DNA from: Actinomycetota bacterium
GTDB lineage: Bacteria; Actinomycetota; Coriobacteriia; Anaerosomatales; Anaerosomataceae
Direction of reading: 5' to 3'
Length of the DNA stretch: 64,000 nt
Assembly (NCBI GenBank): GCA_004348925.1
Contig: RCMX01000006.1
Span: 491,443-555,442 of the forward strand
Under the pieces are notes generated by a model. It saw only the letters and a list, made by a program, of their open reading frames with translations. It made no database searches and was not told where the DNA came from. This document shows positions 21,324 to 29,240 of the stretch, one piece after another (the first letter of the stretch is position 1; the number at the start of each line of letters is the position of its first letter). A program made the translations under genes and the position numbers.

Positions 21324-22046
21324 TTAGTTGTTGGTGTCGCTGCGCCGACGCCGGGTGATCCCAGCCGCGAACATGCAGCCAGCGATGCTCGCCAGGATGT
21401 CGGTCTTGAGCGCCACACTCGCCGTAACGGCCCCGCCGATTCCCGAGAACTCTATAGCCGGCACACCCACGTACGCACCCCACGCGATCGAAATGCCGGC
21501 CGGGATGAAGAAGACCAGTAGCGGCACCAGCCACAACATGCGCGAACGCGAGTGCGTGAGCCTGGCGATTGGAGCGAGCAGTACGTACGGCACGAACACG
21601 AAGAGTGCCTCGGCAAGTATCCAGGTGATCGCCATGGCCGGGGAGATCCCGATTCCGAAGATCTCGGTGATGTCCTCAACCGTGGAGTGGAGAAGTGGTT
21701 GGGCAACGGCGTAGTAGAAGACAAAGGAGGCTGCTGCGGCGAGGATGAGTGCGATCGTGTCCGCTCGGCGGCCCGAAGGCCGGCTGCTGCTGTCATTCGG
21801 CGCCTCGACTTCCGGCGCAACCGCTGCGACCTCGAGGCCGTTCGCTTCGCGATTGAGCAGCTCGTCGAGCGTGATGCCGTAGAGCTTCGCAAGGGCGATG
21901 AGGTTGTCGGTATCCGGCGCGGTCTCGGCGCGTTCCCAGTTGGAGACAGCCTGCCTGCTCACGCCAAGGCTAGCGGCGAGCTCCTCTTGGGAGAGCCCGC
22001 GCGCGCGGCGGCGTGCCGCTAGGCGCTGACCGATCTCGATGTCCAT
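21324..22046 (-). CDS. XRE-family regulator fused to a membrane domain
   Basis: A 240-residue protein: N-terminal HTH_3 domain ('LSQEELAASLGVSRQAVSNWERAETAPDTDNLIALAKLYGITLDELL', given here as landmarks), a charged linker, then four transmembrane helices. Membrane-tethered XRE regulators couple a membrane signal to transcription. The adjacent downstream membrane-protein gene may be its partner. Starts at 22046. The DNA-binding domain is certain; signal and targets are unknown. Confidence 0.85.
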   Translation of the reverse strand: MDIEIGQRLAARRRARGLSQEELAASLGVSRQAVSNWERAETAPDTDNLIALAKLYGITLDELLNREANGLEVAAVAPEVEAPNDSSSRPSGRRADTIALILAAAASFVFYYAVAQPLLHSTVEDITEIFGIGISPAMAITWILAEALFVFVPYVLLAPIARLTHSRSRMLWLVPLLVFFIPAGISIAWGAYVGVPAIEFSGIGGAVTASVALKTDILASIAGCMFAAGITRRRRSDTNN

Positions 22047-22414: not shown

Positions 22415-23782
22415 ATGCTCAGAGACTACGTGTTCCACGACGCCACCCGAAGCTTCTGCAGCGCGTGCCAGGAACTCTGTGACGCCAAGATCATCATCAA
22501 GAACGGGAGCGCATACCTCCTGAAGACGTGCCGCACGCACGGCGAGGAGCTGGCGCTCTTCGAGGAGGACGCGAGCTACCTCTTCGAGAAGCACCGCTAC
22601 GACAAGCCCGGCAACCGCGCGAAGGCCGAGACTCCGGTTCGCGACGGCTGCCCGTACGACTGCGGTCTGTGCCCGGACCACGAGCAGCACACCTGCATCG
22701 GCCTCATCGAAGTCACCCACGCGTGCGACCTCGGGTGTCCTGTCTGCTACGCCAGCTCGGGCACCGGCGAGCACCTGCCGCTCGAGCAGATCGAGCGCAT
22801 GATGGACTTCTATAAGGCGCGCGAAGGCGGCAAGCCGGAGATCCTGCAGATCGGCGGCGGCGAGCCGACCACGCACCCTCAGATCGAAGCGATCCTCACC
22901 CTCGCGAAGCGCAAGCGCTTCAAGTACGTGATGCTCAACACCAACGGCCTGCGCATTGCCGAGGACCGCGCCTTCGCAACGTTCTTGCGCTCGCTCACCC
23001 CCGGCTTCGAGGTGTACCTGCAGTTCGACGGCCTCAAGGAGCGCGTCTATCAGAAGCTCCGTGGCCGTAAGCTCCTCGAGACCAAGCTCGCCGCGATCGA
23101 GAACCTTCAGGCCGCCGAGGTGCCCATCACGCTGGTAGCCACGATCGTCCGCGGCGTGAACGACACCCAGATCGGCGACATCGTTCACTTCGGCATGGAC
23201 TCCGACTACGTGCGCGGTGTGAACTTCCAGCCGGTCGCATTCTTCGGGCGCGGCCCCGCCGAGAACATCGCGAACCGCGTGACCCTCTCGGGCATACGGC
23301 GCGAGATCGAGCGGCAGACGGACAGCCAGTTCAAGCGCGAGGACATCGTGCCGCTGCCATGCGACGTGGACCGCGTCGCCGTCACATACGCGGTGCGCAA
23401 CGGCAACGGCTTCATGCCGGTCACGAGCAAGATCAAGCTCGACAACTACGTGGAGCTTATCGACAACACCATGGATTTCCGTGCCGAGGACCTGGTGAAG
23501 AACGCCATCACGAGGTCGCTCACCAAGGGCATCGCGTGCGACTGCTTCAGGCTCAAAGACGAGATCATGTCGATCCTGCCCGAGGAGTACCTGAAGTGGA
23601 CGCCACGGCAGCGGGCCGACTTCATCGACAAGAACACCTTCCGGATCACCATCTCGTCGTTCATCGACCGCTACAACTTCGACGCGAAATCCATCAAGAA
23701 GGAGTGCGTGCACGTCATCACGCCGGATCTGAAGCGCATCCCCTTCTCGGCGTACAACATGCTGCACCGGAGCCAGACGTGA
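22415..23782 (+). CDS. Radical SAM protein of the tetraether-synthase-like (Tes/MJ0619) type
   Basis: A 455-residue radical SAM enzyme with extra cluster sites. N-terminal Cys knuckle C15-x2-C18-x3-C22 with C39/H42, then 'GCPYDCGLCPDH' (C79, C83, C86) and C94, then the SAM cluster CxxxCxxC at C104/C108/C111 and 'GGGEPTTHP' for SAM binding. The C-terminus has C375/C377 and 'ECVHV' plus 'IPFSAYNMLHR'. This multi-cluster plan matches archaeal MJ0619-type proteins, which join lipid chains. It leads an operon, coupled by a GTGA overlap to a methyltransferase and then to DUF4395-like and Lgt-like genes. Substrate inferred to be a lipid or lipid-linked molecule. The start is the first Met before the Cys knuckle; the ribosome site is weak. 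Confidence 0.85.
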   Translation: MLRDYVFHDATRSFCSACQELCDAKIIIKNGSAYLLKTCRTHGEELALFEEDASYLFEKHRYDKPGNRAKAETPVRDGCPYDCGLCPDHEQHTCIGLIEVTHACDLGCPVCYASSGTGEHLPLEQIERMMDFYKAREGGKPEILQIGGGEPTTHPQIEAILTLAKRKRFKYVMLNTNGLRIAEDRAFATFLRSLTPGFEVYLQFDGLKERVYQKLRGRKLLETKLAAIENLQAAEVPITLVATIVRGVNDTQIGDIVHFGMDSDYVRGVNFQPVAFFGRGPAENIANRVTLSGIRREIERQTDSQFKREDIVPLPCDVDRVAVTYAVRNGNGFMPVTSKIKLDNYVELIDNTMDFRAEDLVKNAITRSLTKGIACDCFRLKDEIMSILPEEYLKWTPRQRADFIDKNTFRITISSFIDRYNFDAKSIKKECVHVITPDLKRIPFSAYNMLHRSQT

Positions 23783-24411
23783 ACCTGCTCGACACGCTCA
23801 AGGACGCACCGCTGCTGTCGCAGCCACCGTTAGCGATTGCGGCGAACGTGGTGACGTTCCTCGCGTTCCTGCTGGTGGGTGCCGCAGTAGTGGCCGACTT
23901 CCGCGCGTACCACCACCAGGCGAAGCAGGTGGAGAAGAGCGACCGCAGCTTCGTGGAAACAGGCAGCATGACCGCGTTCTTCGTCCTCTACTACATCGTG
24001 CTGAAGCTGCAGCTCATCGTCTTTGAGGTGACCGGGCCCGCACGCGAGGTGATGGTCATCGTCGGACTCCTGGTGATCGTCATCGGCGCCGCGTTCAACA
24101 TCTGGGGCCGAGTGGTTCTCAAGTCGCGGTGGGCCAACCAGATCAAGATCTACGAGGGTCACACGCTTGCCACCACCGGTCCGTACGCCATCGTGCGCCA
24201 TCCGCTGTATGCTTCGCTCATCTGGATGTGCGTGGGTGGCTCGATGGTCTACTCGAACGTAGTGTCGCTTGTGCTCACGTTCAGTGTGTTCGTCCCGATG
24301 ATGTACGTCCGGGGCAAGAAGGAAGACGCGCTCTTGCTCGAGGCGTTCGGCGAGCAGTTCGTACGGTACCGGGCCAAGACCGGGATGTTCTTCCCGAGAG
24401 TAGGGGTGTAG
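23779..24411 (+). CDS. Isoprenylcysteine-methyltransferase-like membrane methyltransferase
   Basis: A 210-residue protein with about five helices and the SAM-binding C-terminal signature of the ICMT/PEMT group: 'GHTLATTGPYAIVRHPLYASL' region (about residues 130-155) and a final 'ALLLEAFGEQFVRYRAKTGMFFP'. Such enzymes methylate small or lipid substrates at the membrane. The GTG start overlaps the radical SAM stop (GTGA), so the two are co-translated. Together with the Lgt-like gene downstream it suggests lipid or lipoprotein modification. Fold is clear; substrate is unknown. Confidence 0.85.
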   Translation: MNLLDTLKDAPLLSQPPLAIAANVVTFLAFLLVGAAVVADFRAYHHQAKQVEKSDRSFVETGSMTAFFVLYYIVLKLQLIVFEVTGPAREVMVIVGLLVIVIGAAFNIWGRVVLKSRWANQIKIYEGHTLATTGPYAIVRHPLYASLIWMCVGGSMVYSNVVSLVLTFSVFVPMMYVRGKKEDALLLEAFGEQFVRYRAKTGMFFPRVGV

Positions 24412-24413
24412 TC

Positions 24414-24851
24414 GTGGAGAACGTGACGATCCAGCGCAATGCGTTCCTGTTCTGCCGTTACGGGGTGGCACTCATGGTCTGGGGAGCGCTCTTCTTCGAG
24501 GGCGCACGGGCGTATCTTCTCGGCGGGGTGTTCGTGATCATGGCGCTGTCGTGGGCGCTGAAGGTCCACCGGGCGCCGATGGTATGGATCTACACACAGA
24601 CGTTCGGGCGGTTCATCCCCTCGAAAGACGTCGTGCTCGACGTGAAGGCGATGCGGGTCGCCCACGGCCTCGGCGCGCTTCTGGCGCTCATCTGCCTGTC
24701 GCTCGTGCTGCGCGACAGCCCGCTCGCGATCTACTTCGTAGTCGCCTTCGCTGCGCTCAAGACGGCAAGCGCCCTCGGCGCGTGCCCCGCGTACAAGATC
24801 TACGGATGCCTCGCCAAGGGCGGTTGCTGCGCGATCACGGGAAAGCGGTGA
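24414..24851 (+). CDS. DUF4395-like membrane protein with Cys-rich end
   Basis: A 145-residue membrane protein with about four helices, a middle amphipathic stretch and a C-terminal 'ALGACPAYKIYGCLAKGGCCAI' motif (four Cys over about 17 residues, described here by its ends). The layout is close to DUF4395. A GTG two bases after the previous stop is preceded by AGGGGTG. It is the third gene of the radical SAM operon and overlaps the Lgt-like gene by four bases. The Cys cluster may bind metal or undergo thiol exchange (inference). Confidence 0.75.
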   Translation: MENVTIQRNAFLFCRYGVALMVWGALFFEGARAYLLGGVFVIMALSWALKVHRAPMVWIYTQTFGRFIPSKDVVLDVKAMRVAHGLGALLALICLSLVLRDSPLAIYFVVAFAALKTASALGACPAYKIYGCLAKGGCCAITGKR

Positions 24852-25621
24852 TCCCGGACCTCCATTCACACCCCGACCTGTGGGGTGTGCGGCCCGTGCT
24901 GTTCACGATCGGTGGACAGCCTGTGGCCACGTACTCGTTCTTCGTAACGCTTGGTCTCGTGGTGGCGGTGTTGCTCTACCGCTACAACACCAAAGGCAAG
25001 TCGGTGGGCAACAACGGCCTGTACATCGCCCTGGCAGCGACCGTCGGCGGCATTATCGGCGCTAAGCTCCCGATATGGATCGTGAGTCTGCCGCAGATCC
25101 TCGCCGATCCGCTGCAACCTGCGGTCTGGCTCTCGGGACGCACCATCGTGGGCGGCATCATCGGCGGTGTGCTGGCCGTCTGGCTGGTCAAGCGCAAGCT
25201 GGGCATCAAGCAGCGGCTGGGGAACTACCTGGTGCCGTCGCTCACGGCCGGCATCTTCTTCGGGCGCCTCGGCTGCTTCTTCGCAGGGTGCTGCTACGGC
25301 GTCGCGACGTCGCTCCCCTGGGGCGTGAATTTCGGCGACGGCGTGCTCCGCAACCCGACGCAGCTCTACGAGGCGGTGTTCGTGCTCGGTTTGTTCGTGT
25401 TTGCGCAGCTCATGAAGGATCGCTTCGCGCCGGGCGAGCTCTTCCGCCTCTTCATGATCACGTACTTCGGCTGGCGGTTCCTCATCGAGTTCATCAGGGT
25501 CAATCCCGTATGGATGATGGGACTGACGTATTATCAGGTTGTCTCACTCGGAGTCGTGATTGCGTACGTGCTCAAGGGTGTATACAGGAAAGCAGCCAGT
25601 TCTGCTGGAGGGGGTTCCTAA
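24848..25621 (+). CDS. Lgt-like (prolipoprotein diacylglyceryl transferase family) membrane enzyme
   Basis: A 257-residue, seven-helix protein related to Lgt. Family marks: 'SGRTIVGGIIGGVLAVWL', 'GIFFGRLGCFFAGCCYG', 'SLPWGVNF', 'NPTQLYEAVFVLGLFVF' and 'ITYFGWRFLIEFIRVNPVW'. True Lgt has 'GRxGNFxNGE' where this has 'GRLGCFFAGCCYG', so it is a paralogue rather than the housekeeping lipoprotein enzyme. Lgt moves diacylglyceryl from phosphatidylglycerol, so this relative may handle a lipid made or altered by the radical SAM protein. GTGA overlap with the DUF4395-like gene. Confidence 0.82.
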   Translation: MIPDLHSHPDLWGVRPVLFTIGGQPVATYSFFVTLGLVVAVLLYRYNTKGKSVGNNGLYIALAATVGGIIGAKLPIWIVSLPQILADPLQPAVWLSGRTIVGGIIGGVLAVWLVKRKLGIKQRLGNYLVPSLTAGIFFGRLGCFFAGCCYGVATSLPWGVNFGDGVLRNPTQLYEAVFVLGLFVFAQLMKDRFAPGELFRLFMITYFGWRFLIEFIRVNPVWMMGLTYYQVVSLGVVIAYVLKGVYRKAASSAGGGS

Positions 25622-25622
25622 C

Positions 25623-26048
25623 ATGGACGAGACCAATCTTCCCGAGAACGGAAGCACCCCGGAAACACCGGTACCCGAGCAGCCGATAGCACCGCCGGAG
25701 CCGATGACGTCTCCGATTCCGAATCCTGTGCCCAAGCCCAAGACCGACATCGGTTTCCTCATGCTCGGGCTTGTCACGCCGATCATCGCCTACACCGTGA
25801 CCGGTATGGTCAGCGGTCTGCTCGCAACCGTCATCGGAGATGCGTTCGCGGCGTACTTCAGCATTCTCGGACTCTTCCAGGTGGTGCTCTTCGTCGTCTT
25901 CCCCGTGATGTTCTTCGTGGGTAAGAGCAAGGGCAACGTGCGCATGTGGAGCTTCGGCAAAGGCGGGCTCTTCTTCTACCTGGCCTCGCTCATCATCGGT
26001 CTGCTCGCGTTCGGAACCTGCGCGGTAACGGGCGTCCTCGGCGGCTAG
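25623..26048 (+). CDS. Small membrane protein with Pro-rich N-terminus
   Basis: A 141-residue protein: acidic, Pro-rich cytoplasmic N-terminus ('PETPVPEQPIAPPEP') followed by three hydrophobic helices. The ATG at 25623 has GGAGGGGG eight bases upstream and lies one base after the Lgt-like stop, so it is the fifth gene of the operon. No family recognised. Its place suggests an accessory membrane subunit. Confidence 0.75.
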   Translation: MDETNLPENGSTPETPVPEQPIAPPEPMTSPIPNPVPKPKTDIGFLMLGLVTPIIAYTVTGMVSGLLATVIGDAFAAYFSILGLFQVVLFVVFPVMFFVGKSKGNVRMWSFGKGGLFFYLASLIIGLLAFGTCAVTGVLGG

Positions 26049-28361: not shown

Positions 28362-29240
28362 ATGGCCGACAAGCGTGGAACCGCCATAGCAGGCACGGTC
28401 GCAGCCGTGGTGATCGGAGCCGCCATCTCATGGGCGGGCTCGCAGGGGGGCGCCACCTTCGGCGGCGTGCCGGTCTTCGCGACCGCCGTTGGTATCGCGT
28501 TTCTCGTGCAGTGGCTGGTGTTCGTGCCGTCATTCCTCATGCACACCGAGCGCTACTTCGACATTACCGGAGCCGTGACGTACGTCTCAGTTATGGCGTT
28601 CGCTGTGTTCGCGAGCGGAGACGTCGGCGCACGGTCGCTGCTGCTGCTGACGCTCGTGGTCGTGTGGGCAGGACGTCTCGGGAGCTTCCTGTTCCGTCGC
28701 GTGCGTCGCGCGGGCAAGGACGTGCGTTTCGACGCCATCAAGCAGAACCTCCCCGACTTCCTCATGACGTGGACGCTGCAGGGGTTGTGGGTGAGCCTGA
28801 CGCTGGCAGCCGCTCTCGGCGCAGTTACCGGCGGAGCTGGCGGGCTGGATGCGTTCGCAATCGCTGGCCTGTGCGTGTGGGTCATCGGCTTCGGGCTTGA
28901 GGCGACGGCCGATCGTCAGAAGGGCCAGTTCCGAGCCGACCCCGCCAACAAGGGGCGCTTCATCAACTCGGGTCTGTGGGCGCTTTCCCGTCACCCCAAC
29001 TACTTCGGCGAGATCGTGCTCTGGACCGGCGTCGCGATCATCGCCTTCCCCATGCTTGGCGGCTGGCGGTACGCGACCCTCATCTCCCCGATCTTCGTGT
29101 ACCTGCTACTCACGAGAGTCAGCGGCGTGCCGCTGCTGGAGAAGAGCGCCGAGGAGCGCTGGGGCGGCCAGGACGACTACGAGGAGTACAAGCGCACCAT
29201 GCCAGTGCTGGTGCCGTGGCTCGGCCGCAAGGCGAAATAG
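28362..29240 (+). CDS. DUF1295 (steroid-reductase-like) membrane protein
   Basis: A 292-residue membrane protein with about eight helices of the DUF1295 family, related to the C-terminal catalytic part of 5-alpha steroid reductases. Marks: 'WAGRLGSFLFRRV', 'FEATADRQKGQF' region (as 'GLEATADRQKGQFRADPANKG'), 'GLWALSRHPNYFGEIVLWTG', ending 'YEEYKRTMPVLVPW'. It probably reduces or methylates a hydrophobic substrate. Monocistronic. Confidence 0.88.
   Translation: MADKRGTAIAGTVAAVVIGAAISWAGSQGGATFGGVPVFATAVGIAFLVQWLVFVPSFLMHTERYFDITGAVTYVSVMAFAVFASGDVGARSLLLLTLVVVWAGRLGSFLFRRVRRAGKDVRFDAIKQNLPDFLMTWTLQGLWVSLTLAAALGAVTGGAGGLDAFAIAGLCVWVIGFGLEATADRQKGQFRADPANKGRFINSGLWALSRHPNYFGEIVLWTGVAIIAFPMLGGWRYATLISPIFVYLLLTRVSGVPLLEKSAEERWGGQDDYEEYKRTMPVLVPWLGRKAK

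Follow-up and report, generated by a model that had tools for sequence, protein, structure and literature searches.

A conserved bacterial gene cassette that combines a Tes-fold radical SAM enzyme, an Lgt-like protein and a small membrane protein with a G-x-C tail

We analysed a stretch of 64,000 nucleotides (hereafter the window) from an Actinomycetota bacterium (Anaerosomataceae; assembly GCA_004348925.1, contig RCMX01000006.1, positions 491,443 to 555,442), in which five genes lie head to tail on the + strand between window positions 22415 and 26048. The first gene (22415..23782, +) encodes a radical S-adenosylmethionine (SAM) enzyme of the Tes/TrsS superfamily (455 aa; hereafter rSAM), recognised by PF04055, a PDB match and an AlphaFold/Foldseek comparison. 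It is followed by genes encoding an ICMT-like membrane methyltransferase (23779..24411, +; 210 aa; PF04140) with an RHPLY SAM motif at residues 140-144, a DUF4395-like membrane protein with four transmembrane (TM) segments (24414..24851, +; 145 aa; PF14340) and an Lgt-like protein (24848..25621, +; 257 aa; PF01790). An earlier note on this DNA had described these four genes as an operon coupled by GTGA overlaps. The genes are real and lie where that note placed them, and the overlaps are seen at the rSAM stop/ICMT-like start and at the DUF4395-like/Lgt-like junction, a gap of 2 nt separating the ICMT-like and DUF4395-like genes. The same interval holds a fifth gene left undescribed in that note, which begins 1 nt past the Lgt-like stop and encodes a small membrane protein (P0005; 25623..26048, +; 141 aa) ending in ...LLAFGTC-AVTGVLGG, a candidate substrate. 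A divergent helix-turn-helix regulator (21324-22046, -) lies about 370 bp from the first ATG of the operon, and the next gene on the 3' side, encoding an aminotransferase, is on the opposite strand. The operon therefore probably consists of exactly these five genes, and we consider it almost certain that they form a functional multi-gene system. The regulator has predicted membrane segments and might control the operon.

The same arrangement (type-1 cassette) recurs far from the window genome. A scan of GTDB representatives yielded 34 cassette loci in at least nine bacterial phyla, very small symbionts among them, with hosts in Actinomycetota, Bacillota, Thermodesulfobacteriota, Acidobacteriota, Omnitrophota, Kiritimatiellota, Hydrogenedentota, Moranbacteria, Peribacteria and Gracilibacteria; most of these loci come from metagenome-assembled genomes, and single taxon assignments could err. 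Of these loci, 31 lie on contigs of sufficient length, and every one of them preserves the order rSAM-ICMT-(DUF4395)-Lgt. Moreover, the rSAM, ICMT-like, DUF4395-like and Lgt-like proteins co-diverge (pairwise distance correlations, r 0.69-0.87). With this gene order recurring across many phyla and this co-divergence, the gene set is not a chance assembly. The rSAM gene from Gracilibacteria (L073:8001-9350) is open only with genetic code 25, 24 TGA codons being read as Gly; this cassette is thus native to its genome and not a contamination. Among relatives of the window genome, 4 out of 61 possess the cassette. Beyond the five genes, we found no flanking gene family that recurs across phyla.

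The small protein evolves fast. BLAST with P0005 gave matches at only three loci, while its position in the cassette reveals more. In the window and at 28 loci, the Lgt-like gene is followed directly by a gene for a small protein, mostly with three TM segments, in which a Cys stands 4-14 residues before the C-terminus; at a 29th locus (L065) the small protein lies between the ICMT-like and DUF4395 genes. The Cys is located at the end of the last TM helix. In the window, this helix and the G-x-C motif span approximately 25978..26023 (+), the Cys standing 8 residues before the C-terminus. All 30 testable type-1 cassettes possess the G-x-C tail, with Leu at -6/-5, Phe at -3 (17/29), Gly at -2 (27/29) and Ala, Gly, Thr or Ser at -1 (26/29). 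As a control, we screened the other open reading frames with at least two TM segments in the same flanks. A near-end G-x-C was found in 5 out of 64, of which four are extra cassette small proteins (L052, L053, L064 and L065), and in the remaining one (1/60) the motif is away from the helix end. The type-1 small proteins carry 86 Lys/Arg residues in the loops before the last helix and 3 in the tails. From the positive-inside rule, the N-terminal side of this helix is therefore predicted to be inside and the Cys at the outer face.

Second copies of the small-protein gene are present at six loci (L052, L053, L064, L104, L107 and L134). P0005 is a single copy in the window genome, and we detected no paralogue elsewhere in the genomes tested, related genomes included. 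This points to a dedicated protein, and a role as a general sorting tag is unlikely. Together, the extra copies and the lack of paralogues elsewhere favour the small protein as a dedicated substrate. Its tail resembles a lipoprotein signal peptide in having a basic loop, a hydrophobic helix and a small residue-Cys pair at the outer face; it differs in its C-terminal position, within a protein of several TM segments, and in the Gly at -2. Compared with the lipobox [LVI][ASTVI][GAS]C, the small-protein motif reads [F/L/V]-G-[A/G/T/S]-C, the topology fitting and the -2 position being Gly.

A search of annotated plasmids by tblastn and searches of genomes then revealed a diverged type-2 cassette in Actinomycetes. 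It encodes an Lgt-like protein, a small protein or a pair of them, and a Tes-type rSAM, often with another small protein after it; the type-2 rSAM has no FeS-N motif (described below). Two such loci are on plasmids, in Mycobacterium avium pS2b (L104:4216-7536) and in M. branderi (L107:3346-6539), both with tandem small proteins with a CTGLNP tail. Proteins with a G-x-C were found at 19 out of 21 type-2 loci. Type-2 small proteins end in a helix followed by this motif, mostly as C-T-G-[LIV]-N-P and otherwise as G-x-C-[hydrophobic tail], the common pattern of the tails being C-T-G-[LIV]-N-P-x-x-Y. A third arrangement occurs in Persicobacter (Bacteroidota, L102), with an Lgt-like protein, an rSAM and a 59-aa protein ending in GTGICGSLLS. 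A further conserved small membrane protein, with the motif SKC[IF]L[KR]DTRLVLAYLGL, adjoins many type-2 rSAM genes (L094:7161-7460, L106:6356-6787 and loci L124, L126-L128, L131, L132, L134-L138 and L096).

The window rSAM contains the radical SAM domain (PF04055) and the HMPTM zinc ribbon. Its best sequence match in the PDB is the tetraether synthase GDGT-MAS (7TOL, E 6e-71), and its identity with Tes/GDGT-MAS is 31%. An AlphaFold model from an alignment of 31 relatives (pLDDT 86.6) matches 7TOM/7TOL over the full length in Foldseek (E 1e-42, TM-score 0.84), across the rubredoxin, FeS-N, rSAM and C-terminal cluster domains, the next match having a TM-score of 0.41. A secondary structural similarity with SkfB and SuiB was also observed. 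Three metal sites can be recognised: a rubredoxin-like site (C15x2C18x20C39x2H42), an FeS-N site (C79x3C83x2C86 with H89) and the radical SAM site (C104x3C108x2C111). In Tes, the ligand motifs are C9x2C12x20C33x2H36, C73/C77/C80 with a His, and CX3CX2C (PMC9433317), so that the ligand spacing at all three sites is identical. The Cys of these sites are invariant among cassette members, and H42 varies in a few. The earlier note's description of a radical SAM enzyme with added Cys clusters on the Tes plan was therefore correct. In addition, C316, C377 and C431 are near-invariant and are probably ligands of a candidate C-terminal cluster. Three Cys in the C-terminal domain recall Tes, although C316 aligns to a Ser of Tes.

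Despite the common fold and metal sites, the rSAM is not a canonical Tes (M. jannaschii MJ0619). It scores 299.7 bits against the Tes model NF045702, below the cut-off of 450, and it belongs to a different operon. Residues Met439 and Tyr459 of Tes are replaced in cassette rSAMs by Ser/Thr414 and Val/Ile434. As these two residues are fully conserved in archaeal Tes yet dispensable for Tes activity (PMC9433317), their loss speaks against membership of the Tes family and not against a similar chemistry. In a tree of 59 proteins, all cassette rSAMs group together (support 74, or 92 including Persicobacter), with M. jannaschii Tes and the TrsS-type proteins outside this group; this is a quick tree with long deep branches, whose branching order is unsure. 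The phylogeny proposed in the earlier note as a check against characterised Tes thus places the rSAM in a clade of its own, and the rSAM was not seen to join any unrelated radical SAM family.

The best NCBIfam match, over the full length, is TrsS (NF045646), with 343.2 bits for a cut-off of 490. A canonical TrsS is ruled out by this cut-off and by the tree. TrsS is also coupled to a SAM methyltransferase; however, its partner is of the DVU_1556 type, whereas the window rSAM has ICMT-like and Lgt-like partners and no selenocysteine. A reference TrsS (locus L039, genome G040) reaches 652 bits against NF045646 and lies beside a class-I methyltransferase. Other TrsS-type rSAM genes, in the haloarchaeon Halorarius (L105:4476-7137) and in Mycolicibacterium (L103:5199-8345), adjoin ArsM-related DVU_1556-type methyltransferases. 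An arsenate-reductase-like gene is also present at the Halorarius locus. These neighbours hint that TrsS relatives may be engaged in metalloid chemistry. We rejected the idea of a selenoprotein, raised by an in-frame stop in the FeS-N motif of the rSAM copy of Clostridium lacusfryxellense (L055:5150-5290), as the codon is TAA and not TGA; this copy is probably a pseudogene or mutation, or a sequencing error. A defence system was likewise discarded, with just weak viperin-type matches of the rSAM.

The Lgt-like protein matches PF01790 over its full length (E 1.4e-38), in agreement with the earlier note, and falls below the cut-offs of both Lgt equivalog models (TIGR00544, 77 vs. 119; NF000778, 126 vs. 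334). It keeps the residues of Lgt that bind phosphatidylglycerol (PG), R143, Y235, R239, E243 and R246 (here R140, Y206, R210, E214 and R217), together with the equivalent of Y26 (Y29). In contrast, the catalytic residues His103, Asn146 and Glu151 are replaced by V101, C143 and C149, which rules out a canonical Lgt. Mutation of any of the three inactivates E. coli Lgt (PMC4728403, PMC8689077). In all three groups of Lgt-like proteins, R143, Y235, R239 and E243 are kept, His103 is replaced by Val, Leu or Met and Asn146 by Cys. In type 1, Glu151 is replaced by Cys as well; type-2 proteins have no Cys-Cys pair. The window genome encodes a canonical Lgt elsewhere (L034) with all catalytic residues, and none of the 16 host genomes tested encodes fewer than two Lgt homologues. 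The Lgt-like protein is thus a diverged paralogue, which may still bind PG and must use another chemistry. The window genome also encodes a third Lgt-family protein (L035:1486-2328; G000:C1 near 450203), non-canonical, with the active-site motif GCFLNGCCFG and His103 changed to Tyr; its gene adjoins a subtilase-family gene (L035:30-1448).

The other two partners have fewer recognisable features. The ICMT-like protein satisfies PF04140 and scores 79.5 bits against NF040696 (protein-S-isoprenylcysteine O-methyltransferase), below the cut-off of 160; its gene adjoins that of the rSAM in every complete cassette. The DUF4395-like protein passes PF14340 marginally (25.0 bits for a cut-off of 24.5). 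Its gene is present in 24 out of 31 complete cassettes and absent in seven, and a DUF4395 search of plasmids gave no match. Five Cys are invariant (C14, C124, C132, C138 and C139), and the C-terminal Cys cluster, which adjoins basic residues, is probably cytosolic. A search of the PDB with the model (pLDDT 89.7) found no relative of this fold. Outside the conserved cassette, 2.3 kb downstream, the window encodes a DUF1295 membrane protein (28362-29240, +) with a steroid reductase/ICMT-like fold.

We tentatively propose, as a reading with somewhat less than an even chance of being right, that these genes form a dedicated system for the synthesis of an unusual lipid and for its attachment to the G-x-C cysteine of the small protein, or its maturation with this cysteine. 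In the cytosol, the Tes-fold rSAM would act on a membrane lipid, probably of the PG type, and create an unusual C-C (or C-S) bond on its alkyl tails, and the ICMT-like enzyme would methylate the lipid or the protein product. At the outer face, the Lgt-like protein, with its PG-binding residues kept and its catalytic site rebuilt with cysteines, would join the modified lipid to the Cys of the small membrane protein. The DUF4395-like protein would be an accessory that may dock or reduce the rSAM. Several observations argue for lipid attachment: the full-length match of the rSAM to GDGT-MAS, in which a lipid tunnel and bound lipids are present (PMC9433317); the fact that three diverged groups each associate a G-x-C protein with an Lgt-like protein and a Tes-like rSAM; and the predicted position of the Cys on the outer face, where Lgt works (PMC8689077). 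The constancy of the type-1 G-x-C tail relative to the control reading frames, the Lgt substitutions common to all three groups, the two or more Lgt homologues per host genome and the co-divergence of the other four cassette proteins point the same way. The second small-protein copies at six loci are consistent with a substrate role. That this would amount to an as yet undescribed post-translational modification, in which a coupled or membrane-spanning lipid built by the rSAM is placed on a C-terminal TM cysteine by an Lgt-derived transferase as a bacterial lipid anchor at the C-terminus, and the system has spread horizontally across phyla, including to the candidate phyla radiation (CPR), seems to us rather doubtful. 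From the earlier note, the theme of lipids or lipoprotein anchors holds, given the GDGT-MAS fold and the Lgt-type partner in three groups, while the identity of a tetraether synthase does not, the score lying below the cut-off. Of its two guesses, unusual lipoprotein anchoring was the better one and gains a candidate substrate in the G-x-C tail protein.

Several points weigh against lipid attachment. Gly at -2 falls outside a strict lipobox. Plain diacylglyceryl transfer to the Cys cannot be assumed with the catalytic residues of the Lgt-like protein changed, given the inactivity of the E. coli mutants. The ICMT-like and DUF4395 genes are missing from type 2 and from Persicobacter, so that the shared core is reduced to the Lgt-like protein, the Tes-type rSAM and the G-x-C protein; and at two of the 21 type-2 loci (L094 and L096) no G-x-C protein was found. 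Finally, the lipid chemistry of Tes takes place on the cytosolic side and the Cys would be outside, the two half-reactions being linked by inference only.

Four other explanations were considered. The rSAM could couple free lipid tails (of the diabolic-acid or brGDGT, i.e. branched glycerol dialkyl glycerol tetraether, type) as a bacterial membrane-spanning-lipid synthase, the Lgt-like and ICMT-like proteins editing the head group and the small protein being a scaffold only. Its Tes fold and three metal sites would suit this role, for which the lost Met439 and Tyr459 are not required in Tes (PMC9433317), and the synthesis of such lipids has been proposed or demonstrated for bacterial Tes homologues and for Mss (PMC8941075, PMC13274423, PMC11868695), Mss being a bacterial membrane-spanning lipid synthase proposed to have the Tes catalytic architecture (PMC13274423). 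We nevertheless regard it as unlikely: the rSAM lies below the Tes cut-off and in another clade than M. jannaschii Tes, the window operon showed no lipid-ether genes, and the invariant G-x-C tail and its duplication would be left unexplained. Moreover, CPR hosts also have the cassette, and CPR bacteria are thought to import lipids. Far less probable still, indeed very improbable, is an ordinary accessory set of standard lipoprotein biogenesis. The Lgt fold would fit, but a canonical Lgt with all catalytic residues is encoded elsewhere in the genome, three such residues are lost here, and the distribution is patchy (4/61 relatives).

The small protein could also be a ribosomal-peptide precursor, whose Cys or C-terminal helix would be cross-linked by the rSAM and then excised to give a hydrophobic or lipidated peptide. 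The partner gene is small, evolves fast and is at times duplicated, with the tail of its product conserved, which would suit this explanation, and both the similarity of the rSAM with SkfB and SuiB and the C-T-G-[LIV]-N-P-x-x-Y pattern common to type-2 tails agree with it. However, the Cys would lie on the outer face and the rSAM in the cytosol, the neighbourhood shows no conserved protease or exporter dedicated to such a route and the rSAM revealed no recognition domain, which makes this origin improbable. We give the same low probability to a role in the handling of thiols, metals or metalloids at the membrane, in which the cysteines would form a binding site or a relay, and the rSAM together with the methyltransferase would alkylate a metalloid or a thiol. 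The invariant Cys of the DUF4395-like, Lgt-like and G-x-C proteins could serve such a function, and TrsS-type relatives lie beside ArsM-related DVU_1556-type methyltransferases, with an arsenate-reductase-like gene in Halorarius. Yet none of the genes beside the window operon was recognised as a metal or arsenic gene, no flanking family recurs across phyla, and the Cys-Cys pair is absent from type-2 Lgt-like proteins.

In the open-access literature (PMC), we found no description of a system associating an Lgt-like protein with a radical SAM enzyme. The cassette, real and widespread, thus has no counterpart described in the literature searched, and is built from members of known superfamilies that fall outside the characterised families in the membership tests made. 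Reduced CPR genomes, one of them using code 25, also contain the cassette, which suggests that its function is of value even where the genome is very small. Tes homologues in bacteria that do not make tetraethers are an open puzzle (PMC8941075, PMC9433317), and one large group of them now gains a defined set of partners and a candidate protein substrate. Counts of Tes homologues taken as evidence for brGDGT would mis-assign such genes. If lipid attachment to the G-x-C cysteine is true, it would represent a second bacterial route by which lipids are attached to membrane proteins, with a radical enzyme joining unactivated carbons.

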